Shown here: positions 24,239-49,318 of the stretch, piece by piece
Numbering within the stretch: position 1 is the first letter of the stretch
Layout of the letters: every line of letters begins with the position of its first letter
DNA from: Bacteroidia bacterium
GTDB taxonomy: Bacteria > Bacteroidota > Bacteroidia > Bacteroidales > Paludibacteraceae
NCBI GenBank assembly: GCA_009929445.1
Contig: SAAL01000012.1
Span: forward strand, 1-50,157
DNA: 50,157 bases
Direction of reading: 5' to 3'
The notes under the pieces: generated by a model
What the model saw: only the letters and a program-made list of their open reading frames with translations
Told to the model about the DNA's origin: nothing
The model's database searches: none
Made by a program: the position numbers and the translations under genes

Positions 24239-24586
<348 letters not shown>

Positions 24587-25662: not shown

Positions 25663-26307
25663 CTACAAATCTGCAATTAAGGATTCTCTGAATTTATTGG
25701 CAGATTGTTCGTGCAAATCAATAAATGAGTCCCGGCCACCAAACATACGGAGTAATTTATCTACCTCAATTATCTGACTATTCCGTTCTTTTATTTCGCA
25801 AAACGAAGTGTAACTCCAGTCGGTATATCTGTCGCAAAAAGCATGATGTACCGGATTTCGATGTGTATAAATAACGGCATTCATAAAATAAGCTTTGTTT
25901 TTAATCGGTTCCCTTCGGAAATTCTTCAGAAAAAGCGACCCTCTCCGTTTATTTACCTTGTTGAACGACTGCGTATAACAACTAAACAGATTTGCAAACT
26001 GTTTCGAAATGTAGTATTCAATCATGTTATCGGTGACTTCAACTTTTTCAAAGTTTTGAACTTTGGAAAAGTTAGTAGATTTGAAGTTGCGAAAAACTTC
26101 TTCCAATACTTCCCGCCGCCGAATCCTGACCACCAAATGAAAATGATTCGGTAACAAGCAATAAGCGTATGTTTCTGCAATGGGCAAAATGTACTGATTA
26201 TATTTATCAAGAAAAAAACGATAATTCTCATCCTCGATAAATATATTCTCAAACCCGTTGGCATGATTGAAAATGTGGTAGCTGCAATTGGGTTGTAATT
26301 TTTCCAT
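25663..26307 (-). CDS. REP-associated tyrosine transposase (RAYT, Y1/IS200-like)
   Basis: A 214-aa single-strand DNA transposase of the TnpA-REP class. The HUH motif is in CLLPNHFHLVVRI (about residues 50-62) and the nucleophile Tyr is probably in ANLFSCYTQSFNKVNKRRG (about 110-128), followed by the family pattern AVIYTHRNPVHHAF. RAYTs recognise short palindromic REP elements and usually exist as single copies. Here the gene is flanked on both sides by palindromes sharing CTTTTCCAA/TTGGAAAAG, and one similar palindrome lies inside its own coding region (26041-26073). It sits in the middle of a cas operon, which is unusual. Confidence 0.85.
   Translation of the reverse strand: MEKLQPNCSYHIFNHANGFENIFIEDENYRFFLDKYNQYILPIAETYAYCLLPNHFHLVVRIRRREVLEEVFRNFKSTNFSKVQNFEKVEVTDNMIEYYISKQFANLFSCYTQSFNKVNKRRGSLFLKNFRREPIKNKAYFMNAVIYTHRNPVHHAFCDRYTDWSYTSFCEIKERNSQIIEVDKLLRMFGGRDSFIDLHEQSANKFRESLIADL
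26041..26073. repeat. Palindrome inside the RAYT coding region
   Basis: AACTTTTTCAAAG (26041-26053) and CTTTGGAAAAGTT (26061-26073) pair over 13 bp with one mismatch and a 7-nt loop. It encodes the segment STNFSKVQNFEKVEV, so the element has been accommodated in frame. Confidence 0.7.
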
Positions 26308-26373: not shown

Positions 26374-26895
26374 CTATTCTCCGTAATAATCGTAAAAAAC
26401 GCCGGCAATATCATCTGCAAAGCCGTACCCACACGGCGATGCCCATTCTACACATTGTTCGGCACGGAGCTTGAACTCATTGAGTAATTTGTTTTTTGCC
26501 ATAAACTCCAATGCAGCTTTGTAATTATTATATGTCGAATCGTAAAATTGTTCGGAATAATCGCCATAACAATATGTTAGCTCGCAGGCACTTTCGGGCA
26601 AATACAACATAACATCGGCTAATGCTTCGGGTGATGGTTGCAAGCTTTTAAAATCCGCGATTGCCTTTTTAGCAACAGAGAATTTCTCACTGCCACGTTC
26701 CGGTCTCTCTACATTAAACTCTTTCCGAATCAATTTTTTGTATTTTTCCACCAGTTCTTTTTCGTTCACCGGGTTCAGATAGAAATCGTAAAACTCCTTA
26801 ACTGCTTTGTTTTTATCATACAAATCCAGTATTTGTTCCATCAATTGTTCTTTGGTCAGATTGTTCAGTTCTTTTTTTAGTTTTGCTTTTGACAT
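26374..26895 (-). CDS. DUF6155-like protein
   Basis: A 173-aa protein; start at 26893-26895 (MSKAKLKKELNNLTKEQLME). The opening helices (SKAKLKKELNNLTKEQL, ILDLYDKNKAVKEFYDFYLNP) match the small uncharacterised DUF6155 family of Bacteroidota. The rest is acidic and aromatic (ACELTYCYGDYSEQFYDS), possibly a helical repeat fold. No catalytic motif or membrane segment is seen. It lies between the HU-like gene and the RAYT with palindromes on both sides, so it may be a passenger of the transposase segment rather than a CRISPR component. The family call is moderate; the function is unknown. Confidence 0.6.
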   Translation of the reverse strand: MSKAKLKKELNNLTKEQLMEQILDLYDKNKAVKEFYDFYLNPVNEKELVEKYKKLIRKEFNVERPERGSEKFSVAKKAIADFKSLQPSPEALADVMLYLPESACELTYCYGDYSEQFYDSTYNNYKAALEFMAKNKLLNEFKLRAEQCVEWASPCGYGFADDIAGVFYDYYGE

Positions 26896-26921
26896 ATTCG
26901 TTTCTTTTTTTTGGAAGATTA

Positions 26922-26952
26922 CCATTCCCAAAGTTTTAAACGTTGGAAATGG
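26922..26952. repeat. Palindrome between the HU-like and DUF6155-like genes
   Basis: CCATTCCCAA (26922-26931) and TTGGAAATGG (26943-26952) are 10-bp arms with one mismatch around AGTTTTAAACG. The loop resembles the loop words in the other palindromes of the locus. Confidence 0.65.
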
Positions 26953-26972
26953 CTTGTTGATTTTAAAATAAT

Positions 26973-27368
26973 TTACTCTGCAGCCCTTATAAACTTCGCA
27001 TTTTTCAACCGTTTTCGGAGTGGGAGCGAAGGCGTGAAAGTCACCCGCTTTACTTCCACAGATTCAGCCCGTATTTCCTTCGGGTTCTCCACCCGACGAA
27101 CGCTTTGTGCTGTAAGCGAGAAAGTGCCAAATCCATCCAGGCAAACACTATTTCCATCCAAAAGTTCATCTTCAATACATGCGAGAAGCAACTCAAGCGT
27201 ACTTTTTATTTCAAATGCCTGTAAACGTTTTCCTTTGGCAATGGTGGTAGCCATTTCTTCCAGGCTCACCGTTTTCGATCGGATTACCTGTGGATAATAA
27301 CCCGATTTTTTCTTCTCTTCGGGGTTCAGGTAGTCGCCCCGATGAATCATTTTGTATTTGATACTCAT
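26973..27368 (-). CDS. HU/IHF-family DNA-bending protein (HU-like, Bacteroidota type)
   Basis: A 131-aa protein with a DNABII fold: N-terminal strand and helices (SKTVSLEEMATTIAKGKRL, ALxSTLELLLACIEDELLDG) then the characteristic NSVCLDGFGTFSLTAQSVRR, followed by a basic tail (PSLPLRKRLKNAKFIRAAE). It is longer than classic 90-aa HU because of N- and C-terminal extensions, as in the HU-HIG type proteins common in this phylum. Such proteins bend DNA; IHF does this for spacer integration in type I-E systems. Its place as the first gene after cas9 and ahead of cas1-cas2 makes a similar role here worth testing, but this is inference. Confidence 0.8.
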   Translation of the reverse strand: MSIKYKMIHRGDYLNPEEKKKSGYYPQVIRSKTVSLEEMATTIAKGKRLQAFEIKSTLELLLACIEDELLDGNSVCLDGFGTFSLTAQSVRRVENPKEIRAESVEVKRVTFTPSLPLRKRLKNAKFIRAAE

Positions 27369-27646: not shown

Positions 27647-30600
27647 TTAATACTCACCAACTGAAACGATTTGGCCTAAATGATTAACTCTTACTTTAAT
27701 AATGCTAATTAATGGTGAAGTGCTTTGAATGAATCTGTGTGTAACATTTAATAATTGTTTTTTATTCTTTAATGTATCGTTTGTTACTGCCATTGTTTCT
27801 AAGTGATGATTAAAAACATAATTTTTTGAAGATATTTTCTGCACCCGAAACAAATTCGGACTAATCAAATGATAATTATCAGGATTAAGAAGATCGATTT
27901 CTTTGGGATTAAAAGTAATCACTTCTTCTTCTGTAATTTCACCTGTTTCTTCATTTACTTTTTCTTGTTTTTCAGTTTTGGGGAATACAAAATATTCATT
28001 TTGTTTCATACTGAACAGAAACTGCCAGCCTTCCGACTTTTTGAACTCTTTGTCGATAACAGGCAACCCTTGATTAACCCGGGTTGTAGCTTCGAAAAAA
28101 GAAACCACATTTTCTTGCAATTCATATTTTGGCTGGTTGTTTTCGTCGAATACAACTTGACCATTATTATCTAATACCGGAACATTATAAATAGCAACAT
28201 GGTGATTATTACCTGTATTCACAAAATCTACTGGTTGTTTTTGACCCTTATCGTCTAAAATTATTTTTCCATTTTTATCCCGTTTATCTCGTAACGATTC
28301 TGCATTACTAACACCTGATATAGTAACTCTTTTAATACAAATTCCTTTTTCTTCGTTGAGCCAAATAGGATTTTCGTCTAAATTGGAGAATGCTTGTTTG
28401 GCATTACCGTTGTGTTTCTTTAATCGTTCTTCAAGTATTCTTCGAATATTTGCATCAATTACTTTCTCAATCTTTAAGTCAGCTGAAATATCTTTACGAA
28501 TAGTATAAACAGTTTCAAGACTTACGGTTTTAACTTTTTCAGGAACTTGTGCCGTATGAAGTTCATTCAGCCAGATTGGCCTTTTTGAAAGAGCGTTTGC
28601 TCCGCTAAAAGCTTTTTTCGGATCGTTGTCAAATTCTTGTAAACGTTTTAACAATGCTTCCTTGTACGCAGGTTTCGAAACTGCACTAATCCTGGCTGCA
28701 TCAAATTTGGCATTTACGGCTTCTTCTTTTGTTACATATTGTTTCAGACTGCCATATATAGTTTCGTTATGAAGCTGTCCACGGGGTGTTAGTTGTATCT
28801 TTTTAGTTACTCCACCCTGCTTTTTTGTGATGTTTATATTTTGAGTTACCACTTTATTTTTTGCCTTAATCGAAATCAACGTATTTTCCAAATGCTTTTT
28901 GGCATCTCCTCTGAATTCATCTAAATCAAATGGAGGTCTGAAAAGCAGTTTGCCTTTACCGTTTCGATAAAGTTCTTTTTGTTCTATGCCATAAATGCTT
29001 GAACTTTTATCATTCCGGGCATTCAAATTGTTGAGGTACTGAATAATACTGCGCTTTGTAAATGCCACTGTAAGAGCATCCATTGCATGGTGGCGGTGAT
29101 CGTTTCGTTTAGTCCAATCCTTGATTTTGCGTATTCTGTGCCCTTCTTCATTTGTAAATTCTTCTGTCAGTCCCAGGTTTCTGTATTTTTCCCAGTTCAG
29201 TTCTTTCATGACATCTATTAATTGCCAGTCCTCACGCAAACGATCTGTAACACTGCCTGAAGTAGAAACAACAAATTTAACAAGATCGCCCAACATTGTT
29301 TTGGCGTATTTGGCAATATATTGTGTGTCTCTGATATCGCGTTCAATAAAGCCATCAGGAATATCCTTTTCCTGCATTTTCAGTTTATTGTACTTAGCGC
29401 GTGAAATAACACCTTTTTTGTGTAAATCTTCCATGCGGTTAAGAAAAATATCCAAGCTGGTTTCACTTCCGGTTTCACCGTATTTTGATTTGATAAAATC
29501 AACTGCGGTCATGTTTCCTTTTTCAATGTTGATACTACGCAATTCCAGCGTTTTGTTTGAAAAACTATCATCAAACAGACGTGATTGAGGGATAATATGT
29601 TCAATGTCAAAATCGCCGCTAAATACTGCCGAAGGTGAAATGTAGGTATTTGAATACAGTGTTTTATATCCGTTATCTTTCAATTCTTCATAGAGTTTGT
29701 AACGAATAATATCATTACGGCTTATGTATGAGAGATTAAAAGGTGATTTTGAGAGAATGTCCTTATATTGTTGATGCAGTTTGGTTGTTTCAGCAATTGA
29801 TTTCGTCAGCTCTTCGCGTTCCTTTGCGCTCTTTTTCAGTTCCCTGGCCAATTCAATACGAATTTCGTCGGGTTTTCCATAGGCGTCAATGATTGCATTG
29901 ACAACATTTATCATTTGATTGAGAATTTTTTCAACGACAGGATTTCGCAATGAATTTTTTGGCAAAATATCAAGTCGGTCTTTATAAACCTTATTTTCCA
30001 ACTCTTCGCTTGTAAGTGAACTGGCCGAGTGTCTGTAACCTGCATACTCACAAGCCATATCATATTTGTTTCCGGCTTTAAGATACGGTAATATCTTTCG
30101 GATAGCTTTTGCTGAAAGGCTGCCATAATCATCCTGAAAAGAAATGCTTGAAAGAATAGTTGAGTATTCCTTCTCAAAGCCATAACGCTCAGTTATTTTA
30201 TTAATCAGGTTTTCATCACCCGTTTTTGAATTATCACCTTCGAATGAATAAAGTAAATGCCACAATTGATACATTGGCTCTTTATCTAAATCATTTTCAG
30301 AGTTAAAATGCAAAATACCTGAGTTGTAATTGAATCCCCTGAAAATTTCTTCAATTGATATTAAAATTTCTGAGGTGGTAAGCTTATCAAAATCAATTTC
30401 GTGTCCACTCAATTCTATAATACGTCTGTAAGCATCAAATAGAGTAGCTTGTGTTAAATTACCCTGAATGGAAGGAAAATTCAAATCCAGTTCTTTCGGG
30501 TTATTGAAGAGCAACTTCAATATTTCTGCTTTCTTGAGTTCTTTTTTTATCGAGAGTTCAGCTGCTAATAGTTCTTTTTCTTCCTGATAGAGTTCACGTC

Positions 30601-31969
30601 TTCCACCATATTCTAGCGGATCTTCTATTTCACTGAACAATGACACGCCTTTTTGTTTTTTTGTTTTATTAGCTTTTCCAAATACTTCGATGTCATTCAG
30701 TCGTTGCCAAATCTTAAATTCCTGGAACAAAGGTGACGATCTGGGAATTACCCGACTGCCTACTGATTTTGATTTCTTTTTACCGTCAATCTCAACTTCA
30801 ATCTTTCGGCTTTCAAATTCACAAAAGCTAATAAGCGATTTTTGGCTTTTAAGTCTACGCTGATAAAAGATAACCACATCCCGGATTTCTTGTTTCAGTT
30901 CTTCAGTCAATTCTTTATGAAAAAGAGTTTGCTTTTCCCAAATTGCATTGAATTCATCCAGGTAATCCTGACGATAAAAGACCATATTACGTAAACTTGC
31001 ATTAGGATTTTTATCCAAAACCTCCATCTGGTATTCTCCAACAGTTTGTTTGTTGAAAAAGAGTTCTTTGCTTCTGTCGCTGATAGCTCCCAGATAACCG
31101 CTTGAACTATTGAGCTGGATATTGATTTGTTGCAATACAATCACTAATTGTTCCAGTTCCAGTTTTTCCGACAAACCTTTTGCTCGCCAAACATAATTCT
31201 CGGTTTTTTGTTCTGCTGTATTACCCTGTCTTTTAGTGCCAACTAATTCAAATCCCTTTTCTTTGAATGTTTTAGCACAAATAGCCCAAACAGCATCTCG
31301 TTTTTTTTCGCGAAGTTCTTCTTTTAGTTCATTTGAAAGAAAATCGGGGTAATACTCAAGTTGCTTGTCAAAAACTTTTTCAAACTCCATTTGTAAATCG
31401 GAGCGATAGAAGTCGGGTAGTGTCTTTTTTCGTGCATTTATAAGTCGTAAACAGTATTGTCCGGGAGTAAGGTTTTCGTTGTAAAGCGTTTTTGCCACTT
31501 CCATTCCGTCAATTAAAGCTCCTTTTTCTGTGCCTTTTGCTTTACGACTGCTTTTATAACCGCGTTTCTTATTTATCATCAATAGTACACGAGCAAACTG
31601 TTCAAGTGTAATTTCTTCTTTTACTGCTTTTGCCCTTAACCGGTATGTTTCAAATGTAGTAAAGTTTCCGTTTTCTGAAAGAATTGCTTCATCGGAAATA
31701 AATTTATTATCTCTTAAAATTTTAATCAGATTTTCTCTACGAAGTTTATATCGTTGCAAATTTCGCCGCATAGAACGTTTTAGGGTTCGATCTGCATTAG
31801 TTGTAATACTTTTCCCTTTTTCAAAATCTTGTTGTTCATCGACAGTCAGTGGATTAACTCTTACACCAAGTTTAATAATGGATGATTTCTCATTTTCTTT
31901 TTCAGCTTCATTCACCAATGCCCAGCCAATAGAAGTTGTGCCCAAATCCAAACCTAATATTTTTTTCAT
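27647..31969 (-). CDS. cas9: CRISPR-associated RNA-guided endonuclease Cas9 (type II-C)
   Basis: A full-length 1440-aa Cas9, normal for the large Bacteroidota II-C group. RuvC-I is at the N-terminus (LGLDLGTTSIGWALV, D8), followed by an Arg-rich bridge helix (RSMRRNLQRYKLRR). RuvC-II has E706 in RIELARELKKS, HNH has D788 and H791 in FDIEHIIPQSRLF with the downstream Asn, and RuvC-III has H960 and D964 in HRHHAMDALTVA. All catalytic residues are present, so both strands of a target should be cut. The C-terminal PAM-interacting part is long and Lys-rich. It is transcribed away from the array; the tracrRNA and array start on the other strand 90 bp upstream. No cas4 or csn2 is seen, consistent with II-C. 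Confidence 0.97.
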   Translation of the reverse strand: MKKILGLDLGTTSIGWALVNEAEKENEKSSIIKLGVRVNPLTVDEQQDFEKGKSITTNADRTLKRSMRRNLQRYKLRRENLIKILRDNKFISDEAILSENGNFTTFETYRLRAKAVKEEITLEQFARVLLMINKKRGYKSSRKAKGTEKGALIDGMEVAKTLYNENLTPGQYCLRLINARKKTLPDFYRSDLQMEFEKVFDKQLEYYPDFLSNELKEELREKKRDAVWAICAKTFKEKGFELVGTKRQGNTAEQKTENYVWRAKGLSEKLELEQLVIVLQQINIQLNSSSGYLGAISDRSKELFFNKQTVGEYQMEVLDKNPNASLRNMVFYRQDYLDEFNAIWEKQTLFHKELTEELKQEIRDVVIFYQRRLKSQKSLISFCEFESRKIEVEIDGKKKSKSVGSRVIPRSSPLFQEFKIWQRLNDIEVFGKANKTKKQKGVSLFSEIEDPLEYGGRRELYQEEKELLAAELSIKKELKKAEILKLLFNNPKELDLNFPSIQGNLTQATLFDAYRRIIELSGHEIDFDKLTTSEILISIEEIFRGFNYNSGILHFNSENDLDKEPMYQLWHLLYSFEGDNSKTGDENLINKITERYGFEKEYSTILSSISFQDDYGSLSAKAIRKILPYLKAGNKYDMACEYAGYRHSASSLTSEELENKVYKDRLDILPKNSLRNPVVEKILNQMINVVNAIIDAYGKPDEIRIELARELKKSAKEREELTKSIAETTKLHQQYKDILSKSPFNLSYISRNDIIRYKLYEELKDNGYKTLYSNTYISPSAVFSGDFDIEHIIPQSRLFDDSFSNKTLELRSINIEKGNMTAVDFIKSKYGETGSETSLDIFLNRMEDLHKKGVISRAKYNKLKMQEKDIPDGFIERDIRDTQYIAKYAKTMLGDLVKFVVSTSGSVTDRLREDWQLIDVMKELNWEKYRNLGLTEEFTNEEGHRIRKIKDWTKRNDHRHHAMDALTVAFTKRSIIQYLNNLNARNDKSSSIYGIEQKELYRNGKGKLLFRPPFDLDEFRGDAKKHLENTLISIKAKNKVVTQNINITKKQGGVTKKIQLTPRGQLHNETIYGSLKQYVTKEEAVNAKFDAARISAVSKPAYKEALLKRLQEFDNDPKKAFSGANALSKRPIWLNELHTAQVPEKVKTVSLETVYTIRKDISADLKIEKVIDANIRRILEERLKKHNGNAKQAFSNLDENPIWLNEEKGICIKRVTISGVSNAESLRDKRDKNGKIILDDKGQKQPVDFVNTGNNHHVAIYNVPVLDNNGQVVFDENNQPKYELQENVVSFFEATTRVNQGLPVIDKEFKKSEGWQFLFSMKQNEYFVFPKTEKQEKVNEETGEITEEEVITFNPKEIDLLNPDNYHLISPNLFRVQKISSKNYVFNHHLETMAVTNDTLKNKKQLLNVTHRFIQSTSPLISIIKVRVNHLGQIVSVGEY

Positions 31970-32049: not shown

Positions 32050-32057
32050 TATATTTG
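32050..32057 (+). promoter_or_regulatory. tracrRNA promoter (-7 box)
   Basis: TATATTTG (TAnnTTTG) ends 4 bp before the first base that can pair with the repeat, which would place the RNA start at or just inside the anti-repeat. It is divergent from the cas9 promoter 48 bp away. Confidence 0.55.
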
Positions 32058-32061
32058 CAGT

Positions 32062-32141
32062 ACAATTTTTGAAGCAAATCACAATAAGGATTATTCCGTT
32101 GTGAAAACATTTAAAGCGGGGCTTACACCTCGCTTTTTTTT
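32062..32141 (+). ncRNA. tracrRNA
   Basis: ACAATTTTTGAAGCAAATCA (32062-32081) is the reverse complement of the 5' half of the CRISPR repeat, apart from single-base gaps in the A- and T-runs. After a short spacer comes a GC-rich hairpin AGCGGGG (32115-32121) / CCTCGCT (32128-32134) running into eight Ts (32134-32141), a proper intrinsic terminator. Size about 80 nt. The pairing polarity shows that crRNAs are made from the plus strand. Position between cas9 and the array fits Bacteroidota II-C loci. Confidence 0.88.
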
Positions 32142-32142
32142 G

Positions 32143-33780
32143 TGTTATGCTTTCAATCCCGATAAAAATCGGGATGTATCTTTGATCTGATAAACAACGG
32201 GTGTTTCGCCCTCGAAGACATCCCAACAGTTGTGATTTGCTTTCAAAAAATTGTATCTTTGATCTGATAAACAACAACATCATTCCTGACAGAAGAGATT
32301 GCCAAGTTGTGATTTGCTTTCAAAAAATTGTATCTTTGATCTGATAAACAACTGAAGTTTTTGGTGAAGGTTTGAACGGTACGTTGTGATTTGCTTTCAA
32401 AAAATTGTATCTTTGATCTGATAAACAACATGGTTGGAATATTTAGTTACTAATGATTAGTTGTGATTTGCTTTCAAAAAATTGTATCTTTGATCTGATA
32501 AACAACTTCTTCAACTTGTTCCATCGTGTACTATAGGTTGTGATTTGCTTTCAAAAAATTGTATCTTTGATCTGATAAACAACTGAAGCAGATCCACCTT
32601 CATTAGAATCGGCGTTGTGATTTGCTTTCAAAAAATTGTATCTTTGATCTGATAAACAACAAATCGATTATCCTTGCACCGGCACCGATAGTTGTGATTT
32701 GCTTTCAAAAAATTGTATCTTTGATCTGATAAACAACATTTAACAGAGAAGTAGTAAACCAGCTCAGTTGTGATTTGCTTTCAAAAAATTGTATCTTTGA
32801 TCTGATAAACAACAAAGCCGAACACGTTAAAAGATAACGCAAAGTTGTGATTTGCTTTCAAAAAATTGTATCTTTGATCTGATAAACAACAATGTTTTCT
32901 TTACACTTATATGAACAAAAGTTGTGATTTGCTTTCAAAAAATTGTATCTTTGATCTGATAAACAACCGTTTCCCTGAGTTGCTGTTTCTCTGTTTCGTT
33001 GTGATTTGCTTTCAAAAAATTGTATCTTTGATCTGATAAACAACTGTTCCACTTCCTGTTGCATCACCTGATACGTTGTGATTTGCTTTCAAAAAATTGT
33101 ATCTTTGATCTGATAAACAACTAAACGGGTCGCCTTTGACATAGTTATACAGTTGTGATTTGCTTTCAAAAAATTGTATCTTTGATCTGATAAACAACTT
33201 ATATTCTTGGAATAGCCGTTTACAATGCGTTGTGATTTGCTTTCAAAAAATTGTATCTTTGATCTGATAAACAACATTTACCAGAGAAATAAGAAAAAGT
33301 AACTAGTTGTGATTTGCTTTCAAAAAATTGTATCTTTGATCTGATAAACAACAGAACCGGAAGCCATATTGCCATCAACCAGTTGTGATTTGCTTTCAAA
33401 AAATTGTATCTTTGATCTGATAAACAACTAAAGGTCGGGAAAATATTTTAGATAACAAGTTGTGATTTGCTTTCAAAAAATTGTATCTTTGATCTGATAA
33501 ACAACCAATTACTAATCCATATTCAAAAATTATTGTTGTGATTTGCTTTCAAAAAATTGTATCTTTGATCTGATAAACAACAATTGATAAGGATTATATC
33601 GATTCGGCAATGTTGTGATTTGCTTTCAAAAAATTGTATCTTTGATCTGATAAACAACATATACACTGCTGAAATCGGAGTACGAGAAGTTGTGATTTGC
33701 TTTCAAAAAATTGTATCTTTGATCTGATAAACAACTGCAAAAATTATCACATCAAAGATGATGTGTTGTGATTTGCTTTC
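32143..33780 (+). CRISPR. Type II-C CRISPR array: 20 full repeats, 2 damaged end repeats, 21 spacers
   Basis: The 47-bp repeat begins GTTGTGATTTGCTTTCAAAA and ends TTTGATCTGATAAACAAC. Twenty copies, apparently identical, run from 32229 to 33735. Spacers are 30 bp, with a few of 29 (for example 32738-32766, 33353-33381, 33506-33534, 33736-33764). The first repeat (about 32143-32198) has lost its 5' part and carries an inserted hairpin TCCCGATAAAAATCGGGA, but keeps the last 23 bp. The final repeat (33765-33780) keeps only the first 16 bp. Each full repeat contains TTG (positions 2-4), 21 nt and TATCTTTG (26-33), a match to the phylum promoter. Spacer 8 (32738-32766) and spacer 15 (33276-33305) share the pattern ATTTA(A/C)CAGAGAA. 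Confidence 0.97.
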
Positions 33781-33915
33781 AGAATCACATACCACATTTT
33801 TACAGAAAACAAGAGCAAACAAAAACTAATAATAATCTATATATTAGATAATTGCAAATTTTACTACCTCCCGAAATACTCTTCTTTTTTGCTCATATTT
33901 GTTCTTTTTTGCACA

Positions 33916-33952
33916 AAACCGTTTCTCAAACCGTTTCTTTTTTGTATCTTTG
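33916..33952 (+). promoter_or_regulatory. Promoter region of the second integrase with 12-bp-spaced repeats
   Basis: TATCTTTG (33945-33952) lies 17 bp before the ATG at 33970. Just upstream, AAACCGTTTCT occurs twice (33916-33926 and 33928-33938) with 12-bp spacing, as TTACAGGCAAA does upstream of the left integrase. The -33 box is not clear. Arm sites or operators are both possible. Confidence 0.45.
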
Positions 33953-33969
33953 TTTCAAAGAAAACGGAT

Positions 33970-35040
33970 ATGAAAACTACAGTCAAACTGAGAATTAAGA
34001 AACTCGCCGATGGAAACGGAAGCTATTATCTGGATTGGTTTCAGAATGGAAAACGCCATTATGAATACCTGAAAATCTACACCGTACTATCCGACCGCCC
34101 CACCAAGGAAGAACGGGAAGCCAATAAGGAATCCCTGAAACTTGCCCAACAGATACGCAATCAGCGTGAAAACCAGCTTATCGCCAGCCCGAACGGAATC
34201 ACACCTGCACACAAGCGTAAACAGTCAGTTCTTGCCTATTGCGAAGCTCAGGCAATAACTAAAGTCAGTATGCAGGTTGTTGATCACCTCAAAGAATATA
34301 TGCCCAACAAATCGCTCCAAATGCAGGAAGTAAAGCGGGAGTTTGTCCAGGGCTTTGCCGATTATTTGACAAGCAATCTTCACGGAAATACGGCTAACGC
34401 CTATTTCTCCAAATTCCGTTCGTTTATCAAAAGAGCCATTACCGAAAGCATTGTTGCGTCCGACACCCTGTTGGATATTGAAGCTCCAGAGAAGCAAGAA
34501 ACGATTGTAAGTTTCCTTACAACCGATGAAATTGCCCGGATAGCACAAAGCAACCTTAACCCGAAAGTAAAAACCGTATTCCTGTTTTCCTGCTTTTGCG
34601 GGATGCGCTATTCCGACATTAAAAACCTCACTTGGGGAAATATCACCGAAGATTTCCGGCTGAAATTCTCACAGCAAAAAACACAGACCAAAAACGGCAA
34701 ACAAACAGGCGTAACCTATTTGCCGATGAATCCCCAGGCAATCGCTTTGCTTGGCGAACGCAAAGCCGATGATTACAAGGTTTTCAGCGTTCCCACGCAA
34801 CAGGCGTGTGATAAAGCGTTGAAGAATATAGCCACCAAATTAGAACTCAAAAAAACGCTCCATTTCCACATTGCCCGGCACTCGTTTGGTGTTATCTTGC
34901 TCGAAAGCGGCGTTGATATTTACAAGGTCAGCAAATTACTTGGGCATAAATCCGTTCAAACAACCATTAAACATTACGCAAACATAACCGACAAGGGAGC
35001 TCGCGAAGCAATCGACAGTTTTCCTGAAATAAAAATCTAA
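33970..35040 (+). CDS. Tyrosine recombinase (site-specific integrase) of the right element
   Basis: A 356-aa integrase; start at 33970 (MKTTVKLRIKKLADGNGSYY), since the upstream open stretch reads through the promoter. It has an Arm-type N-terminal domain (to about 75), a SAM-like core-binding domain (about 85-170) and the catalytic domain. Catalytic residues are the Arg in CGMRYSDIKNLTW, the His and Arg in HIARHSFGV, the His in LLGHKSVQTT and the nucleophile Tyr in IKHYANI. It begins only 190 bp after the truncated last CRISPR repeat. It is about 100 aa shorter than the left integrase and belongs to a different branch. Confidence 0.92.
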   Translation: MKTTVKLRIKKLADGNGSYYLDWFQNGKRHYEYLKIYTVLSDRPTKEEREANKESLKLAQQIRNQRENQLIASPNGITPAHKRKQSVLAYCEAQAITKVSMQVVDHLKEYMPNKSLQMQEVKREFVQGFADYLTSNLHGNTANAYFSKFRSFIKRAITESIVASDTLLDIEAPEKQETIVSFLTTDEIARIAQSNLNPKVKTVFLFSCFCGMRYSDIKNLTWGNITEDFRLKFSQQKTQTKNGKQTGVTYLPMNPQAIALLGERKADDYKVFSVPTQQACDKALKNIATKLELKKTLHFHIARHSFGVILLESGVDIYKVSKLLGHKSVQTTIKHYANITDKGAREAIDSFPEIKI

Positions 35041-35052
35041 TCAAGTTACAAT

Positions 35053-35943
35053 ATGGATAGTTATAATTTAAAGTACGATCTCGATGATTTTATTGAGAAT
35101 GACGAATTGAATACTCAAATTTATGGAGTTCTGTTGGCAATGCAAGACGGAGCTCCTAATCGTATTAAACTAAAACGGGATATTATTCACATGTTCAACA
35201 AAATGTATGAAATGTGTCATATAATCAGGCAAGATAAGCACCCGGAAATGTACTTTCAAAACTATTGGGATAAAGCAAGGGCTGAACATACAAGTTATGA
35301 AACCAGCATAATTTTTTCAGGAGTTTATCTTATTCTGTCTTTAAGGCCGGGGACAAGTATAAATTTATCAATCTGTCTTAATCGAATTAAGGCGAAGATT
35401 GATCCGGCATATTTAGAACCTTTTGAGCCGATTTTAAATAGTGGCAAAGCGTATGCTGATGGCAAGGCTTTACCTCCTGATTTTGCATTTCTGAAATTTG
35501 AAGCTGACAAAATTGAAGATTTATCCAAGCGGGAATTGTTTTATCAGGAGTATCAGACTCGATATAAGCAAGCTCAGAATCAAGGGGACATACTCAAACA
35601 GATTGAAGATGAAATAAAACTTATTGAGCGAACTAAAGCCCTCGCCGTTCAAGAAAATATTGAAATTCCAACCGAAAGCGAGAAGGGAGTTTCAAGTAAG
35701 GTTCGAGCAGTCGTAATAATGGAAATGCTCAAACAAATGGGCAAAGGGAAGTCTGCAAATGATCTTTCAGCAATTTGCAGGCTTGTTTCGTTTCTTACGA
35801 ATCAGAGCGAAAAGAAGCTTTATAATGAAGCCCAGAAGGGTATTTTGTTGAGTTCGTACCATGATGCTGAAATATCACAAGTCAATGAAATTATGAAATC
35901 ATTAAATATCTCAATATCAATAGAAAAGAATAAAGACTACTAA
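35053..35943 (+). CDS. Hypothetical protein of integrative elements, 296 aa
   Basis: No family recognised. It is soluble, mostly helical, with a Gln/Glu/Lys-rich segment (QTRYKQAQNQGDILKQIEDE) likely to form a coiled coil at about residues 175-200 and a C-terminal helical part starting VSSKVRAVVIMEMLKQMGKG. It starts 12 bp behind the integrase and ends just before tandem palindromes. The left element has an unrelated-looking 351-aa gene in the same position. Confidence 0.6.
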   Translation: MDSYNLKYDLDDFIENDELNTQIYGVLLAMQDGAPNRIKLKRDIIHMFNKMYEMCHIIRQDKHPEMYFQNYWDKARAEHTSYETSIIFSGVYLILSLRPGTSINLSICLNRIKAKIDPAYLEPFEPILNSGKAYADGKALPPDFAFLKFEADKIEDLSKRELFYQEYQTRYKQAQNQGDILKQIEDEIKLIERTKALAVQENIEIPTESEKGVSSKVRAVVIMEMLKQMGKGKSANDLSAICRLVSFLTNQSEKKLYNEAQKGILLSSYHDAEISQVNEIMKSLNISISIEKNKDY

Positions 35944-35945
35944 TT

Positions 35946-35972
35946 TACAACCGGGTTGTACAACCAGTTGTA
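35946..35972. promoter_or_regulatory. Two overlapping palindromes upstream of the HTH pair
   Basis: TACAACCGGGTTGTA (35946-35960) and TACAACCAGTTGTA (35959-35972) are consecutive palindromes sharing TACAAC/GTTGTA half-sites. Their place between the hypothetical gene and the two HTH genes matches that of the tandem palindromes at 10692-10762 in the left element. Confidence 0.55.
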
Positions 35973-35997
35973 AGCTCTTTTTGACTATTCATTTGCA

Positions 35998-36030
35998 GTC
36001 GCAATCTTCACAAGAGGGTTGCGGCTTTTC
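35998..36030 (+). terminator. Possible terminator before the HTH pair
   Basis: GTCGCAA (35998-36004) pairs with TTGCGGC (36019-36025), one G-T pair, followed by TTTTCTTTT. It could end the integrase transcript or attenuate read-through into the HTH genes. Confidence 0.4.
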
Positions 36031-36084
36031 TTTTGGAATTCGCCGCAAGCGGAAAGCCTAACAACTTGGCGAGCAAATGAAATT

Positions 36085-36390
36085 ATGCAAGAACAGATTT
36101 TACTGAAACTCGACTCAATCGAAAAACGCTTGGTCGAACAGAATCTTCTCCAAAAGGAGATTTTTACCTTTGCCGAAGCCTGCTTATACCTCGACTTAAG
36201 CAGCAGCCATTTGTATAAGCTGACAAGCAGCAATACAATCCCATGTTATTGTCCGCAGGGAAAGAAACTCTATTTCCGCCGTCCGGAACTTGATTTGTGG
36301 TTAACCCGTACTCGCTCTGCTTCAGTTGCAGAAGTTGAACAAAAAGCAGCTGATTATATCAGTGGCAAAGGAAGGAGGATAAGACGATGA
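36085..36390 (+). CDS. Small helix-turn-helix protein (excisionase type), first of a pair
   Basis: A 101-aa protein; ATG at 36085 (MQEQILLKLDSIEKRLVEQN) chosen because a short coiled coil and then the HTH follow directly (FTFAEACLYLDLSSSHLYKL, then KKLYFRRPELDLWL). The basic tail GKGRRIRR may touch DNA. Its stop overlaps the next HTH gene by 4 bp. Likely an excisionase or element regulator. Confidence 0.75.
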   Translation: MQEQILLKLDSIEKRLVEQNLLQKEIFTFAEACLYLDLSSSHLYKLTSSNTIPCYCPQGKKLYFRRPELDLWLTRTRSASVAEVEQKAADYISGKGRRIRR

Positions 36391-36746
36391 AAGAACCCCG
36401 TATTTTATCTGAAATCCTGAAAGATTATTTTCAGAGCAGCAACGAGCCGTTGGCTGTAAATTTTCGCAGACATTTCAACATTAAGCAAGTCCAGATGGAC
36501 CAGCTTTCAAATGAGGAAATTGATGAAATGCTTGAAAAGTCCTTTCTTGAAGATTGGATTGATAATCAAGATGTAATGCAGATTCTGCATATTAGCCCCC
36601 GTACATTACAAACCCTGCGTTCCAATGGCATGTTGCCATTTTCACGTATTGGCAATAAATTGTACTACCGCCGCCAAGACTTACAACGCTTGCTTGCCGA
36701 TAATTACAGCATGATTAAAATTCGTGATTATGGGAAGCGTAAGTAA
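36387..36746 (+). CDS. Small helix-turn-helix protein (excisionase type), second of a pair
   Basis: A 119-aa protein with an N-terminal helical region and an excisionase-type HTH from about residue 60 (NQDVMQILHISPRTLQTLRS, then PFSRIGNKLYYRRQDLQRLL). The motif closely resembles those of the two HTH genes of the left element. It overlaps the first HTH gene by 4 bp and the next gene's start by about 17 bp, so the set is one transcription unit. Confidence 0.75.
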   Translation: MKEPRILSEILKDYFQSSNEPLAVNFRRHFNIKQVQMDQLSNEEIDEMLEKSFLEDWIDNQDVMQILHISPRTLQTLRSNGMLPFSRIGNKLYYRRQDLQRLLADNYSMIKIRDYGKRK

Positions 36747-37725
36747 GGCGGCGATATTGTCTAAAACTCACTACGGTATTGGAATATATGCCCATGTGTT
36801 GAGTTTGTATTATCCAAATCAAACAGTCCTCTCCCTTTCGGGGAGGACTTGTTTGCCAACCAAAAATCCATTCAATGCCGATAAACCGACATTGAATATT
36901 TTTATTTTCAAGGAGAATGTTTTGGGTAATGCTTTAGATAGAGAGTTTGCACGGCACGAGGATAGCGAAAACGCTATCCCTGCCGGTGATCCGTTCGGCT
37001 TTGCCGAACTGCATTATAAACAGTCCGGTGATGAAATACTGCAAACGCTGAACAAGAAAATGAATCTGAGAATCGGCGAAAAATTCGATTTTTACGCTAA
37101 CGGTAAAAAATCAAATATCTCACATAATCCTGATAATCAAAATAATCATAGTTTAGATATTGGGGTGAGGCATTTCTCATTCTTTAAAGCTCCCGTTCGG
37201 AATACTATTCCTCACAAGTCAATCTCTTTGCTCGATGCCTACAATTACATTGTCGGCGATTATGCAAAACAACGAACGGAAAAACTCAGAAGTATAGAAG
37301 ACCTAAAACAAGCACGGCAATTCAAAGCCTCAACATTCGACTACTGTACTTTTTCAGGAATGTTTCAAACCCGAAACGACAAAGCATTGATTAGTCATTC
37401 CGGCTTATTGTGCATTGACTTTGACCATTTGCAAAGCGTTGATCTGCTTCGCAAGCAACTTTTGCAAGATGAATACTTCGAAACCCAATTACTCTTTGTA
37501 AGTCCCTCAGGAGATGGCATTAAGTGGATAATCTCAATAAGTCCACCTGTGGGGGATTTAGGGGGCTTTTCCCACAGCAACTATTTTGCTGCGGTTGCAA
37601 ACTACATTCTACAAACCTATGGTGTTGAAGTCGATAAATCAGGACGGGATATATCCCGCGCCTGCTTTCTTCCACACGACCCACAGGCATACATTAATCC
37701 AATTTACAAACCTTCAACTAAATAA
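36730..37725 (+). CDS. BT4734/VirE-N-like primase-type protein
   Basis: A 331-aa protein of the BT4734/BF3469 kind found next to DUF3987 genes in Bacteroidota elements. The core (about 125-330) has KASTFDYCTFSGMF, SGLLCIDFDHLQ, ETQLLFVSPSGDGIKW and SGRDISRACFLPHDP, resembling archaeo-eukaryotic primase or VirE-N domains with acidic residues in CIDFDH. I prefer ATG 36730 over GTG 36724. The first 120 residues are poorly conserved and include two in-frame palindromic insertions (LSLSGRTCLPTKN; SPPVGDLGGF lies further in). It is followed after 2 bp by the PriCT/DUF3987 gene. Confidence 0.7.
   Translation: MGSVSKAAILSKTHYGIGIYAHVLSLYYPNQTVLSLSGRTCLPTKNPFNADKPTLNIFIFKENVLGNALDREFARHEDSENAIPAGDPFGFAELHYKQSGDEILQTLNKKMNLRIGEKFDFYANGKKSNISHNPDNQNNHSLDIGVRHFSFFKAPVRNTIPHKSISLLDAYNYIVGDYAKQRTEKLRSIEDLKQARQFKASTFDYCTFSGMFQTRNDKALISHSGLLCIDFDHLQSVDLLRKQLLQDEYFETQLLFVSPSGDGIKWIISISPPVGDLGGFSHSNYFAAVANYILQTYGVEVDKSGRDISRACFLPHDPQAYINPIYKPSTK
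36826..36848. repeat. Palindromic repeat inside the BT4734-like gene
   Basis: GTCCTCTCCC (36826-36835) and GGGGAGGAC (36840-36848) form a hairpin in the poorly conserved N-terminal part. This CCTCTCCC/GGGGAGG word is a frequent dispersed palindrome in Bacteroidota genomes. It reads in frame. Confidence 0.55.
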
Positions 37726-37727
37726 TT

Positions 37728-39578
37728 ATGAGCAAGAAGACATTTAACCCGGCAGATTGGGTTCCAGATAAATCAATACAAAATCCCAAGTCCCAAGAGT
37801 CCTTACAGTCTTTAGGTACAAGTAACGATATTGAAGAAATTACGAGAAGAATTGAATCTTCAGCTCTCGATATTGCCCCCAATTATGCCGATTGGCGCGA
37901 CCTTGGTTTTGCCCTCGCTGACGCTTTGGGCGAAAGCGGTCGTAATTACTACCACCGCCTAAGCCGTTTTTATCCGTCTTATTCGCAAAGCGAAACTGAC
38001 AAACAATACTCTGCTTGCCTTGCTTCGCACGGCCACGGTGTTACAATCAAAACCCTTTACCACCTTGCAAAAGCAGCAGGAGTAAGCGTTTCTATTCCTC
38101 AACCTCCCAAAAGCCCCTCCTTTGGAGAGGTTGGGGAGGCTAAATCTCCAATTCCCCAAAATGGGGAAATGGAGGAAATGGGGAAATGTCGTGCCAGCGA
38201 GAGCAGAGGTCAAACTCGTTTGAACCTTTGCCGAGAGCAGCCGACATTACTGGAACAGAATCAGGAAAAGCAGTTGCCCGCTTTCCCGAAAGACATATTT
38301 GAAACATTGCCCGGCTTACTCCATGCAATCACTTCAAATGCCGATTCACCCGAAGATGCAGACTTGCTTTTGCTGGGCTCCCTCACTGTTTTCAGTGCAT
38401 GTATGCCAAATGTGTACGGTGTGTATGGTCAGCATGAAGTATTTCCAAACCTATTTCTTTTTGTTACAGCTAAGGCTTCGGCAGGTAAAGGAAGACTTTC
38501 TCTTTGTCGTCGTTTGGTAGAACCTATTCACCAAATGATGCGCCAGCAATGCAAAGCCGAACAGGAAGAATACAAGTTGAAACTCACACAGTACAACGCC
38601 AGCAGCGATAAGGCACATGAAGAAAAACCCGAAGAACCACCTCTCAGAACGCTGATTATTCCGGCTAACAACAGTGCAACAGGTCTGTTTCAATTGCTCA
38701 AGGAGAATAACGAAAAGGGATTGATTTTTGAAACCGAAGGAGATACGCTTGCACAAACTTTCAAGTCCGAACATGGAAATTATTCCGATGGTTTCCGCAA
38801 AGCGTTTCACCACGAAACAATTTCGTATAACCGCCGCAAAGACAGGGAATTTGTTGAGTTAGCAAGCCCTCAACTTTCCGCCCTTTTATCTGGCACGCCC
38901 AAACAGGTATCTTCATTGATACCGAACGCCGAAAACGGACTTTTCAGCCGTTTCATGTTCTACTTTATGAATCTTCGCCCAATATGGAAAGATGTGTTTG
39001 CTGGTGATGACGAGCAACCGCTTGAACATAAATTTGATGTTTACGGAAAAGAGTTTTTGGATTTCAATCTTTTTCTTCGTCAGCAACCAGTCCGGTTTAG
39101 ATTTGCTTTTTCAAGCAGTCAACAAAAAGCGTTCAATGCTTACTTTGAACAAACTCAACTTCAATACCTCGAATTGTGCGGAGATGATTATGTGGGAAGC
39201 ATTCGCCGGTTAGGTTTAATTGCTTTTCGTTTAGCTATGATAATGACCGCTTTGAGAATCATTGACACGGGGGAAGTTTCGTCTGTGCTTGTTTGTAATG
39301 ACAGCGATTTCAATACGGTGATGGAAATAGTAAAAGTGCTTGTTTTACACGCAGCATACATTTTTGAGCAACTGCCCAAAGACACCGCAACACAACAGCC
39401 ATTAAATCATAAACGGCAGTTATTGGATGCTTTGCCTGCTGAATTTGACCGCCAGACTTATCTTGCAGTCGCTAAAAATCTGAATATCCCCGACAAAACA
39501 GCCGAGAAGCAAATCAGTCGATTTGTGGACGCAGGACTGCTGAAACGCCCTTCTCACGGCAAATACTGCAAGTCTTAA
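37728..39578 (+). CDS. PriCT_2-DUF3987 replication protein
   Basis: A 616-aa protein. Residues about 30-125 resemble a PriCT_2 primase C-terminal domain (YADWRDLGFALADALGESGR). A low-complexity linker (about 130-180) contains PPKSPSFGEVGE and IPQNGEMEEMG, encoded by palindromic repeats. The DUF3987 ATPase region follows, with LFVTAKASAGKGRLSLC at the Walker A position (GKG instead of the usual GKS/T) and later GLIFETEGDTLAQTF and LLSGTPKQVSSLI. A winged helix ends the protein (RQTYLAVAKNLNIPDKTAEK). It probably drives element replication with the BT4734-like primase. The altered Walker A may weaken ATP binding. Confidence 0.75.
   Translation: MSKKTFNPADWVPDKSIQNPKSQESLQSLGTSNDIEEITRRIESSALDIAPNYADWRDLGFALADALGESGRNYYHRLSRFYPSYSQSETDKQYSACLASHGHGVTIKTLYHLAKAAGVSVSIPQPPKSPSFGEVGEAKSPIPQNGEMEEMGKCRASESRGQTRLNLCREQPTLLEQNQEKQLPAFPKDIFETLPGLLHAITSNADSPEDADLLLLGSLTVFSACMPNVYGVYGQHEVFPNLFLFVTAKASAGKGRLSLCRRLVEPIHQMMRQQCKAEQEEYKLKLTQYNASSDKAHEEKPEEPPLRTLIIPANNSATGLFQLLKENNEKGLIFETEGDTLAQTFKSEHGNYSDGFRKAFHHETISYNRRKDREFVELASPQLSALLSGTPKQVSSLIPNAENGLFSRFMFYFMNLRPIWKDVFAGDDEQPLEHKFDVYGKEFLDFNLFLRQQPVRFRFAFSSSQQKAFNAYFEQTQLQYLELCGDDYVGSIRRLGLIAFRLAMIMTALRIIDTGEVSSVLVCNDSDFNTVMEIVKVLVLHAAYIFEQLPKDTATQQPLNHKRQLLDALPAEFDRQTYLAVAKNLNIPDKTAEKQISRFVDAGLLKRPSHGKYCKS
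38102..38174. repeat. Two palindromic repeats in the linker of the DUF3987 gene
   Basis: One element pairs CCCCTCC with GGAGAGG around ttt and CCTCC with GGAGG further out (about 38103-38139). The other has arms CTCCAATTCCCC (38146-38157) and GGGGAAATGGAG (38163-38174) with one mismatch. Both are translated in frame. A similar CCCC...AAAATGGGG word recurs at about 49277-49307. Confidence 0.65.
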
Positions 39579-39610
39579 AACCTGTTTATTTCTTTTTCTT
39601 GCTTTTGTTT

Positions 39611-39661
39611 ATAATTTTCTTGTTTTTTCTGGTAGAAACAAGAAAATTATTTTTATATTTG
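39611..39661 (+). promoter_or_regulatory. Operator-like 15-bp inverted repeat and -7 box before the AbiEi-like gene
   Basis: ATAATTTTCTTGTTT (39611-39625) and AAACAAGAAAATTAT (39636-39650) are perfect arms around 10 nt, followed 3 bp later by TATATTTG (39654-39661), 22 bp before the ATG. This is the layout of an operator lying across the -33 region. AbiEi antitoxins of type IV systems are known to bind inverted repeats in their own promoter. The hairpin followed by TTTTTAT might also terminate the DUF3987 transcript. Confidence 0.6.
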
Positions 39662-39683
39662 CTGTCGATAATATCAAATACAA

Positions 39684-40409
39684 ATGACTGAAACAATTAG
39701 AAATACAATCAATCGTTTTGCTACTGGATATGTGTTTACAACATTGGATTTTCCTGTTGATGTAAGCAAACAAGCCACTGTAAACCGTATTTTGAACAAT
39801 ATGGTTGCTGCCGGGCAAATACGCCGATTATCTAAGGGACGTTTTTACAAACCTCAAATTTCTGAATTTGGAGAGTTGCAACCCGATATTGATCAAGTGG
39901 TGAAAGATTTGATTGAAAAGAATGGCAAGCCTGTTGGTTATATTACTGGTACCACTATTTTCAACAAATACGGTCTTACTTCACAAGTTCCGGCAGACTT
40001 ACAAATAGCAGTCCGTAAAGAGAAGAAACCGATTATTAGAGGAACTTACCAAATATCTTTTGTCAATCAGCCCAATACGATTACAAAGGAGAATATCCCT
40101 ATTTTGCAATTACTTGACTGTTTACGCTTCTTCAAAACTATTCCCGACACTTCGCCTGAACAGGCTTGTCAGCGATTAATTGAGATATTCAGGGAGTTGG
40201 ACAGCAAACAGGTACTTGCAACAAAGAAATTGGTATTGAAATACAATCCGGCAAGTATAGCACTATTGGGGGCAATACTTGAAAATGCGTGTCCCGATGA
40301 AGATGTCTCAGTGCTTTTCAAGGCACTGAATCACTTATCAACCTACAAATTGGGTATTTGCGAAACAGTACTTCCAAATTGTAAAAAATGGCATATAATA
40401 AACCAATAA
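39684..40409 (+). CDS. DUF6088 / AbiEi-like transcriptional regulator
   Basis: A 241-aa protein with an N-terminal winged helix (about 1-60: GYVFTTLDFPVDVSKQATVN, MVAAGQIRRLSKGRFYK), then GKPVGYITGTTIFNKYGLTS and QIAVRKEKKPIIRGTYQISF. This is the layout of the AbiEi antitoxin family, also labelled DUF6088 in Bacteroidota. AbiEi normally precedes an AbiEii nucleotidyltransferase toxin; no such gene follows here. Instead it heads a tight operon of four other genes (gaps of 16, 15, 32 and 6 bp), which suggests it has been reused as the repressor of that module. A large perfect inverted repeat in its promoter supports autoregulation. Confidence 0.75.
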   Translation: MTETIRNTINRFATGYVFTTLDFPVDVSKQATVNRILNNMVAAGQIRRLSKGRFYKPQISEFGELQPDIDQVVKDLIEKNGKPVGYITGTTIFNKYGLTSQVPADLQIAVRKEKKPIIRGTYQISFVNQPNTITKENIPILQLLDCLRFFKTIPDTSPEQACQRLIEIFRELDSKQVLATKKLVLKYNPASIALLGAILENACPDEDVSVLFKALNHLSTYKLGICETVLPNCKKWHIINQ

Positions 40410-40425
40410 TTTCAAATAGATAACC

Positions 40426-40707
40426 ATGAAAGAATACAGTACAGTTCAGGAAAGAGATGCTTTCGATGAAAGAATCTTTGAAATTGTTCAGGAATACATT
40501 GAAGATGGAAATTCCGAAAGCAACTTTGGTTTGAGTATAAATCCTCAAACATTAGAATTGGCTCTCGTTAGTCATGAGAATAACCCTGAGGGGTGCGATT
40601 TCCACCCATTGGAAAGTTTGATTCGTCCCAATGATAACAACACCGGAAATGAACCTGATTGCGATGCTACTCACGAATTGGCTTCGTCATACTGCTTTGT
40701 GAGGTAA
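40426..40707 (+). CDS. Hypothetical acidic protein, 93 aa
   Basis: Not recognised. It is acidic, rich in Asn, Asp and Glu, with a helical start (ERDAFDERIFEIVQEYIEDG) and a C-terminal part rich in Asn, Asp, Cys and His (NNPEGCDFHPLESLIRPNDN). No signal peptide. It lies 16 bp behind the AbiEi-like gene and 15 bp ahead of a nuclease-like gene, so it belongs to the operon. Small acidic proteins beside nucleases can be inhibitors or DNA mimics, but nothing in the sequence proves that. Confidence 0.6.
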   Translation: MKEYSTVQERDAFDERIFEIVQEYIEDGNSESNFGLSINPQTLELALVSHENNPEGCDFHPLESLIRPNDNNTGNEPDCDATHELASSYCFVR

Positions 40708-40722
40708 AAAATCATTCATTCA

Positions 40723-41238
40723 ATGGAATATCAATTAGTATATCAACTATTTCCCCGCTCTTTTGGCATTACAGAAGACATTAAGGCGGTAATTTCATGT
40801 TTTGAAAGAAATTATGAACAAATCAAGTCTCCAGACAATAATTTGCCAAGTGACGGAGTGTTGAAAGTTCTTTCTGCCGATTTGGAAGCCTTGAATTTCA
40901 AAGTAGAAAGAAGCAAGACAAGTGTTGATAAAATCAAAGTTCCTGTCTTGTTTAGTATCAACAATAGAATTGATAAATTCTTTGATGCTGACGCCGTAAG
41001 TGAAGATGGAAAGATTGTAATTGAAGTAGAGGCTGGGCGTGGTTACAGAAACAATCAATTTCTCAAGGACATTTTTCAGGCTTGCATGATGCCCAATGTT
41101 GAATATCTGGTAATCGCAGTAAGAAATCACTATCACGATTCGGACGACTTCAAATCAATCTTTCAATTTCTGGAAACATTATATATCAGTGGCAGATTGC
41201 AACTTCCATTGAAAGGTATTGTCCTGATTGGTTATTGA
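40723..41238 (+). CDS. Probable PD-(D/E)XK-fold nuclease-like protein
   Basis: A 171-aa protein. After a helical N-terminus the segment FFDADAVSEDGKIVIEVEAG (about residues 85-104) shows a D...E-x-E pattern on successive strands, followed by QFLKDIFQACMM and VEYLVIAVRNHY. This is the topology of a restriction-endonuclease-like core in which the third acidic residue replaces the usual Lys or sits in a variant ExE motif. The remaining helix and strand (LQLPLKGIVLIGY) complete a small alpha/beta fold. With an HNH nuclease next to it, a role in DNA cleavage or recognition is plausible. The fold is inferred by eye. Confidence 0.5.
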   Translation: MEYQLVYQLFPRSFGITEDIKAVISCFERNYEQIKSPDNNLPSDGVLKVLSADLEALNFKVERSKTSVDKIKVPVLFSINNRIDKFFDADAVSEDGKIVIEVEAGRGYRNNQFLKDIFQACMMPNVEYLVIAVRNHYHDSDDFKSIFQFLETLYISGRLQLPLKGIVLIGY

Positions 41239-41270
41239 ATATCTATGTTAATATGAAAAAAGCAAAATAA

Positions 41271-42041: not shown

Positions 42042-42047
42042 TTTGCT

Positions 42048-44416: not shown

Positions 44417-44601
44417 TTGTTGTTGAAAATATACATACAAAAGTACCAATAATGAATGAATTATGAGATGGATACATTTTGACATTGAAAGGATAAAGTA
44501 TCTTTCAAAGTATGTATATAACTCGATGATGATAATGTCTTATATTCATTACAAATACATTTTTATTAAATAAAACAATAATCTCCACAAAAAAAAATAT
44601 C

Positions 44602-47694: not shown

Positions 47695-47758
47695 TTAGAA
47701 CTTTGCTATAGACTAATTTAGAAATTGTAATTATTATACCAAATTAAACTTTTGATTT

Positions 47759-49087: not shown

Positions 49088-49114
49088 CGCCAAATTCGCT
49101 ATAATAACGCCACA

Positions 49115-49237: not shown

Positions 49238-49318
49238 TTACCACAAATGAACGGGTTAGAAATGTATTTCCCCATTATTCCCCAAATCTCCAAAATGGGG
49301 ATATGGGGAATTTTCAAT

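Follow-up and report, generated by a model that had tools for sequence, protein, structure and literature searches.

Why are the two end repeats of one CRISPR array damaged in complementary halves? This question is raised by the window, by which we mean the whole stretch of 50,157 nucleotides analysed here, from a contig of a Bacteroidia bacterium of the Paludibacteraceae. A first-pass annotation had proposed that every repeat carries a Bacteroidota promoter, and that the first repeat needs only to start a transcript and the last only to pair with tracrRNA. We find that this account holds in part for the first repeat and fails for the last, which is the junction with an integrated element; the complementary halves have two unrelated causes, one for each end repeat. 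Our overall explanation, to which we assign a probability of roughly 0.78, is that type II-C repeats are built in two parts, that the first repeat has promoter function only and that an element with a tyrosine integrase has split the array at GCTTTCA.

The locus contains cas9 (1440 aa; 27647–31969, minus strand), a cas1 of the type II family TIGR03639 (24633–25676, minus strand) and cas2 (24239–24583, minus strand) but no csn2 or cas4, which is the gene content of type II-C. Apart from cas1, the cas9–cas2 interval holds only an HU-like DNA-binding protein (HU-HIG) and a DUF6155 protein, which lie together between cas9 and cas1 (26374–27368), and a Y1 REP-type transposase (25663–26307). A Y1 gene between cas9 and cas1 recurs at L253 (5260–5898) and at 18 further loci; it occupies this gap in 18 of the 125 fetched II-C loci that have both genes (a few genomes are counted twice). 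A Y1 gene was detected in 19 loci altogether, and in 18 of them it occupies this position. The Y1 transposase looks like an operon member rather than a stray insertion. A tracrRNA gene lies upstream of the array on the plus strand, with a −7-like promoter box (TATATTTG, 32050–32057; consensus TAnnTTTG from PMC9723704), an anti-repeat (32066–32084) that is 89% complementary to the 5′ half of the repeat and forms a duplex of −24.4 kcal/mol with the consensus repeat, and an intrinsic terminator, GCGGGGCTTACACCTCGC followed by T8 (32115–32140), directly upstream of the array. A scan of the window against Rfam returned no match. This tracrRNA, with its anti-repeat complementary to the repeat, is of the type II-C kind, as is the combination of a degenerate first repeat with an intact last repeat on the leader side (the 3′ end, the presumed side of spacer acquisition). 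The orientation of the array, on the plus strand, was derived from the anti-repeat and is independent of any promoter motif.

The last repeat had been taken for the damaged end of the array. It is instead the left attachment junction (attL) of an integrated element: 17 bp at 33765–33781 (plus strand), where the first 17 nucleotides of the repeat (GTTGTGATTTGCTTTCA) are joined to the element. On C187, the contig of the window, the repeat breaks off behind GCTTTCA, 188 bp short of the start of a tyrosine integrase gene. Searching the whole of the same genome, we located 16 copies of the second repeat half on contig C168, where the array resumes after ...TTATTGTGAATAGCTTTCA, continues through 15 intact repeats and closes with a complete one. 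Joining the two flanks at GCTTTCA restores an exact 47-nucleotide repeat. Because the array resumes on C168 and joining the flanks yields a perfect repeat, the cut repeat can be identified as the attL of an integrated element. The link between the separate contigs C187 and C168 consists of the reconstructed repeat and the homology of both ends to those of G219, a genome from another family of the order.

We looked for this integrase in 1,172 genome searches, with overlapping samples. In G219, the integrase (75% identical to that of the window) adjoins an array with the identical cut, and the complete element of 19,877 bp sits inside the array, which resumes behind it and is followed by cas2-cas1-cas9. 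The G219 flanks join to a consensus repeat; thus, in both genomes attL and attR share a common core and removal of the element restores an intact target. The attP inferred for G219, TTGTGATTT-GCTTTCA-AAATCACAA, flanks the core with a perfect inverted repeat of 9 bp, and AAACCGTTTCT-type repeats occur near both ends of both elements, as expected for arm sites. In G859, the element, with a 98% identical integrase, follows the first spacer and has the same junction, and G885 has a broken copy at the same kind of repeat place. The integrase of G697 is 78% identical and its junction lies in a tracrRNA anti-repeat, whose sequence is complementary to that of the repeat; this incomplete genome yielded no other repeats. 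At this insertion, in L255 (G697:C140, 2058–2075), the tracrRNA is cut off from its upstream promoter side. In G853, the integrase is 97% identical and the site is an unrelated intergenic one, TTTGTGATGAATATTCA, matching in TTGTGAT and TTCA. A CRISPR repeat or tracrRNA is therefore the site in five of six genomes (the window genome, G219, G859, G885 and G697, not G853). From the junctions, the reconstructed empty site and their recurrence, all read directly in the assemblies, we infer that the integrase acted on the repeat. Integrase relatives at 30–38% identity were kept outside this comparison of attachment sites, except that Cas9 loci were scanned for integrases in the vicinity of arrays; this revealed one distant relative 401 bp from the array of L176. 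A gap in the array of L106 was considered as an insertion and rejected, since no cut repeat was seen there. In open papers we found no report of integration into CRISPR repeats or of repeats serving as attB; most subscription journals lay outside the scope of this search.

The left ~16.4 kb of the element fills the rest of the window (33782–50157, plus strand), and its right end is on C168 (1–2862), with the arm-type repeats near the ends. At the end of the element is the tyrosine integrase (33970–35040, plus strand), with catalytic (Phage_integrase), core-binding (SAM-like) and arm-binding (Arm-DNA-bind_5) domains. It is followed on the plus strand by two helix-turn-helix or excisionase-like proteins (36019–36746) and by BT4734-like and PriCT_2/DUF3987 primase-helicase-like replication genes (36724–39578), and then by defence cargo comprising AbiEi, HNH, AIPR/MzaE, Vsr, a metallophosphatase-STAND protein (PDC-S60) and a Schlafen AlbA_2 protein (39684–49087, no strand assigned). 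The C168 side ends with DUF6266, holin-like and endolysin-like genes. The G219 element has the integrase, DUF3987 and DUF6266 in common with it and differs by McrBC, D12 methylases and a Fic protein. Tyrosine-integrase elements and phage satellites with defence cargo combine an integrase, an excisionase-like helix-turn-helix protein, a primase, an att core in short inverted arms and arm-type repeats. The window element matches this class in integrase, helix-turn-helix proteins, primase, cargo, att core and arm-type repeats, but differs in attaching at a CRISPR repeat or tracrRNA anti-repeat, not at a tRNA or coding gene, and in that no capsid or conjugation genes were seen, in an element of which the middle is missing in this genome. 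The element resembles a phage satellite or a small integrative element. Searches of viral, phage and plasmid collections gave no close free phage or plasmid copy, and no circular form was found. Among the matches listed for the array spacers, none hit the element beyond self matches and 16-nucleotide chance hits.

Upstream of the cut, the array consists of 20 intact 47-nucleotide repeats (GTTGTGATTTGCTTTCAAAAAATTGTATCTTTGATCTGATAAACAAC) with spacers of 29–30 nucleotides (32229–33735, plus strand). As described in the first-pass annotation, each intact repeat has TTG at positions 2–4 and TATCTTTG at positions 26–33, with 21 nucleotides between them. The TAnnTTTG box of Flavobacterium psychrophilum spans −12 to −5 relative to the transcription start (PMC9723704), which places the predicted start at repeat position 38, ten nucleotides before the spacer. 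We surveyed related Bacteroidota II-C repeats, a check that the annotation had itself proposed, using arrays extracted from loci with Cas9 relatives. Such relatives were present in 46 of the 295 order-level and 15 of the 395 phylum-level genomes, the present genome being included in each figure, and 80 loci from named genomes were added. An exact TAnnTTTG was present in 63 of 82 distinct repeats, compared with a mean of 2.8 and a maximum of 11 in 1000 trials in which the middle of each repeat was shuffled; 15 more have the box with one mismatch and four lack it even at one mismatch. The distance from TTG to the box was 18–23 nucleotides in 61 of the 63 repeats with an exact box, and the box was still exact in 14 of 23 repeats after thinning to <60% identity. 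In a near-identical set of 83 repeats, the box occurred in 64 on the transcribed strand, in one on the other strand and in eight when read backwards. When 76 repeats were aligned on the box, its columns had 1.3–2.0 bits, the two ‘n’ columns being lowest, and the eight downstream columns 0.04–0.4 bits, although restricting the alignment to repeats within one mismatch of the box favours the box somewhat. Type I-C repeats had no box, a weak control with only four distinct, GC-rich repeats. In some lineages the box reads GATCTTTG (listed for the repeats of L092, L123, L141, L199 and L102), and in L092 and L141 this box is nearer the 3′ end of the repeat; the L102 repeat has two TAnnTTTG boxes. The II-C repeat of L167, on a contig labelled Fibrimonadaceae and thus outside Bacteroidota, has TAAATTTA in place of TAnnTTTG.

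A phylum-specific promoter box is thus conserved in the 3′ part of the repeats, the mark of an array with repeat promoters, and the window repeats probably each carry a Bacteroidota-style promoter, as judged from their −7 box. The survey provides broad sequence evidence for this box in Bacteroidota II-C repeats. The −33 TTG half of the promoter is not supported: in intact repeats TTG is confounded with the conserved GTTGTG terminus, and degraded first repeats do not keep it. Of the proposed phylum consensus TTG-N17-23-TAnnTTTG, the comparative evidence therefore upholds the −7 box, whereas the TTG half does not withstand the first-repeat comparison described below. Nor is the idea of repeat promoters new to the phylum. 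For F. columnare, a TTG motif and eight reads from within the array led to the proposal of a repeat-encoded promoter (Hoikkala 2021, PMC8092290), and a TTG motif led to the same proposal for F. psychrophilum (Fp2Cas9 2023, PMC10309648); RNA-seq reads lie inside the arrays of both species (PMC8092290, PMC10309648). As far as open papers show, the new part is the phylum-wide TAnnTTTG evidence and not the idea of a repeat promoter. The window array is like these two II-C arrays in its phylum, in the proposed repeat promoter and in transcription toward the leader, but the Flavobacterium papers rest the promoter on the TTG motif, whereas its support in the window is TAnnTTTG. In Neisseria meningitidis and Campylobacter jejuni, each repeat of the II-C array has a promoter (PMC3656092; Zhang 2013 as cited in PMC12080349 and PMC13187072), and crRNA transcription in C. 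jejuni begins at spacer position five (PMC3656092). The window locus resembles both in its tracrRNA-dependent array, minimal cas set and −10-type element in the 3′ part of the repeat, but its box is TAnnTTTG at positions 26–33 of a 47-nucleotide repeat. The survey predicts starts ~10 nucleotides upstream of the spacer, in the window as in its relatives, and not inside the spacer as in Campylobacter.

The first repeat had been described as having lost its 5′ half. We found that a mutated 5′ half, TTTGTGTTATGCTTTCA, is still there (32139–32155, plus strand), matching the consensus at 14 of 17 positions, compared with 12 for the best match in shuffled sequence. An 18-bp palindrome, TCCCGATAAAAATCGGGA, is inserted behind it (32157–32174, plus strand), followed by an intact 3′ part (32176–32198, plus strand) with TATCTTTG at 32177–32184; the statement that this repeat keeps its box half was correct. 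The nearest upstream TTG is 34 nucleotides from the box, so that a −33 element, as the annotation’s consensus defines it, is missing from the first repeat. Predicted pairing with tracrRNA is −11.8 kcal/mol for the first repeat versus −24.4 kcal/mol for the consensus. Across 62 first repeats, mismatches heap at positions 1–16 (15–31 of 62 at each) and are rare in the box and at the 3′ end; in II-C first repeats it is thus generally the tracrRNA-pairing half that is lost and the box-bearing 3′ half that stays, although the array finder, which needs 55% identity, would under-detect first repeats that had lost the 3′ half. Among those with a degraded 5′ half, TAnnTTTG is kept in 23 of 26, and TTG at 17–23 nucleotides in 6 of 26 (3.3 expected). 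In first repeats the fixed box positions change far less than the eight nucleotides upstream (4/198 versus 62/264, p = 1.6e-12). The box was not significantly better kept than the downstream nucleotides in the first repeats (p = 0.20). Since the downstream nucleotides are kept about as well, first-repeat decay alone is no proof of promoter function, and we rejected box retention as a stand-alone argument for it.

Decay of II-C first repeats in the first 15 nucleotides, the part that pairs with tracrRNA, together with upstream terminators and hairpins, has been read as blocking extraneous crRNA (Feussner 2025, PMC12080349; PMC13187072). The ‘extra’ repeat of the window is similar to those of PMC12080349 in its mutated first ~15 nucleotides, upstream terminator and nearby hairpin, but its hairpin lies inside the repeat, between the pairing half and the promoter box. 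We propose that this repeat would have promoter function only, its pairing half being mutated, displaced by the hairpin and sealed off by the tracrRNA terminator, and that these changes would block a useless extra crRNA.

It is possible that the conserved TATCTTTG instead serves repeat recognition by Cas1–Cas2 or RNA structure and that transcription of the array begins elsewhere. In favour of this, conservation within arrays extends over the whole repeat, Hoikkala and colleagues had only eight reads on the II-C array (PMC8092290), and a Riemerella study using a generic predictor predicted a promoter in the leader and none in the repeats (PMC5006608). We nevertheless consider such another role unlikely, because the conserved columns track the sigma-A −7 pattern including its looser nn, the box is found on one strand only, it persists in first repeats, which play no part in II-C spacer acquisition (PMC12080349), and a terminator seals the upstream side of the array. 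The original suggestion that selection shaped both ends, the first for promoting and the last for pairing, agrees with the loss of the 5′ half and retention of the 3′ half of first repeats across the 62 arrays, but seems quite improbable given that the last repeat in the window is not the end, the array resuming on C168 and closing with an intact repeat, and that the last repeats of other arrays are essentially intact. That the truncated repeat reflects a random deletion or mis-assembly beside an integrase gene that is there by coincidence might be suspected in a draft genome of 293 contigs in which C187 ends inside the element. This is hardly credible when the same 17-nucleotide cut lies beside 75–98% identical integrases in G219 and G859 and beside a broken integrase in G885, and when G219 has both element ends on one contig.

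These data suggest a modular repeat. Its 5′ half (positions 1–17) would pair with tracrRNA and end the crRNA of the preceding spacer; its 3′ half, with the primary-sigma −7 box at 26–33 and a start near position 38, would serve the following spacer. We infer this promoter activity and start point from the conservation of the box. The element would have recombined at GCTTTCA, between the two halves of one repeat, leaving the right junction and the rest of the array on C168. Predicted pairing with tracrRNA is −22.4 kcal/mol for the attL repeat, which can also fold on itself at −7.3 kcal/mol, and −16.4 kcal/mol for the attR repeat, which keeps the whole box. Because the crossover falls between the pairing half and the promoter half, both array halves should stay expressed, and because each keeps the parts it needs, the insertion should be nearly neutral for immunity. 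This fits the II-C array of F. psychrophilum, which is split by IS256 and of which both parts are transcribed (PMC10309648), although the window array is split by a site-specific integrative element. The arrangement of II-C repeats in modules would thereby be linked to insertion tolerance.

We lean towards the view that in this family of defence-carrying elements attP has become adapted to that half of II-C repeats which pairs with tracrRNA. The array would offer a many-copy, conserved and harmless docking site, since a promoter in each repeat would leave both array halves expressed after docking, whereas an element docked in the tracrRNA gene would separate that gene from its promoter and might thereby switch off Cas9 immunity. 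A competing explanation, which we find doubtful, is that the element accepts any TTGTGATTT-like site and strikes repeats only for their copy number, without adaptation. The intergenic TTTGTGATGAATATTCA site in G853 is in keeping with this, as is the multiplication of sites by repeats (37 matches in the window genome), but the G219 attP closely matches repeat positions 2–17, and the element in G697 hit a single-copy tracrRNA anti-repeat. If the docking-site reading is correct, it would explain arrays that are split yet active and would offer an integrase with a repeat-specific target. An odd-looking array end thus becomes a testable event, the recombination of a mobile element into CRISPR repeats.

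Inserts within first repeats are not confined to the window. Six other loci (L092, L093, L100, L154, L172 and L179) have an insert just after position ~17 of the first repeat, hairpin-forming in most of them. Some of these first-repeat inserts are REP-like and sit between the tracrRNA-pairing half and the −7 box, and in L093 and L154 two successive repeats carry inserts. Elsewhere in the window genome, at L038 (2706–2750, contig C43), an isolated degenerate repeat, CCTTGTGATTTGCTTTCGGGATGTATCTTTAATCTGATAAATAAC, immediately precedes a gene of ~400 aa; it has GGGATGTATC in common with the first repeat of the window, as if derived from one.
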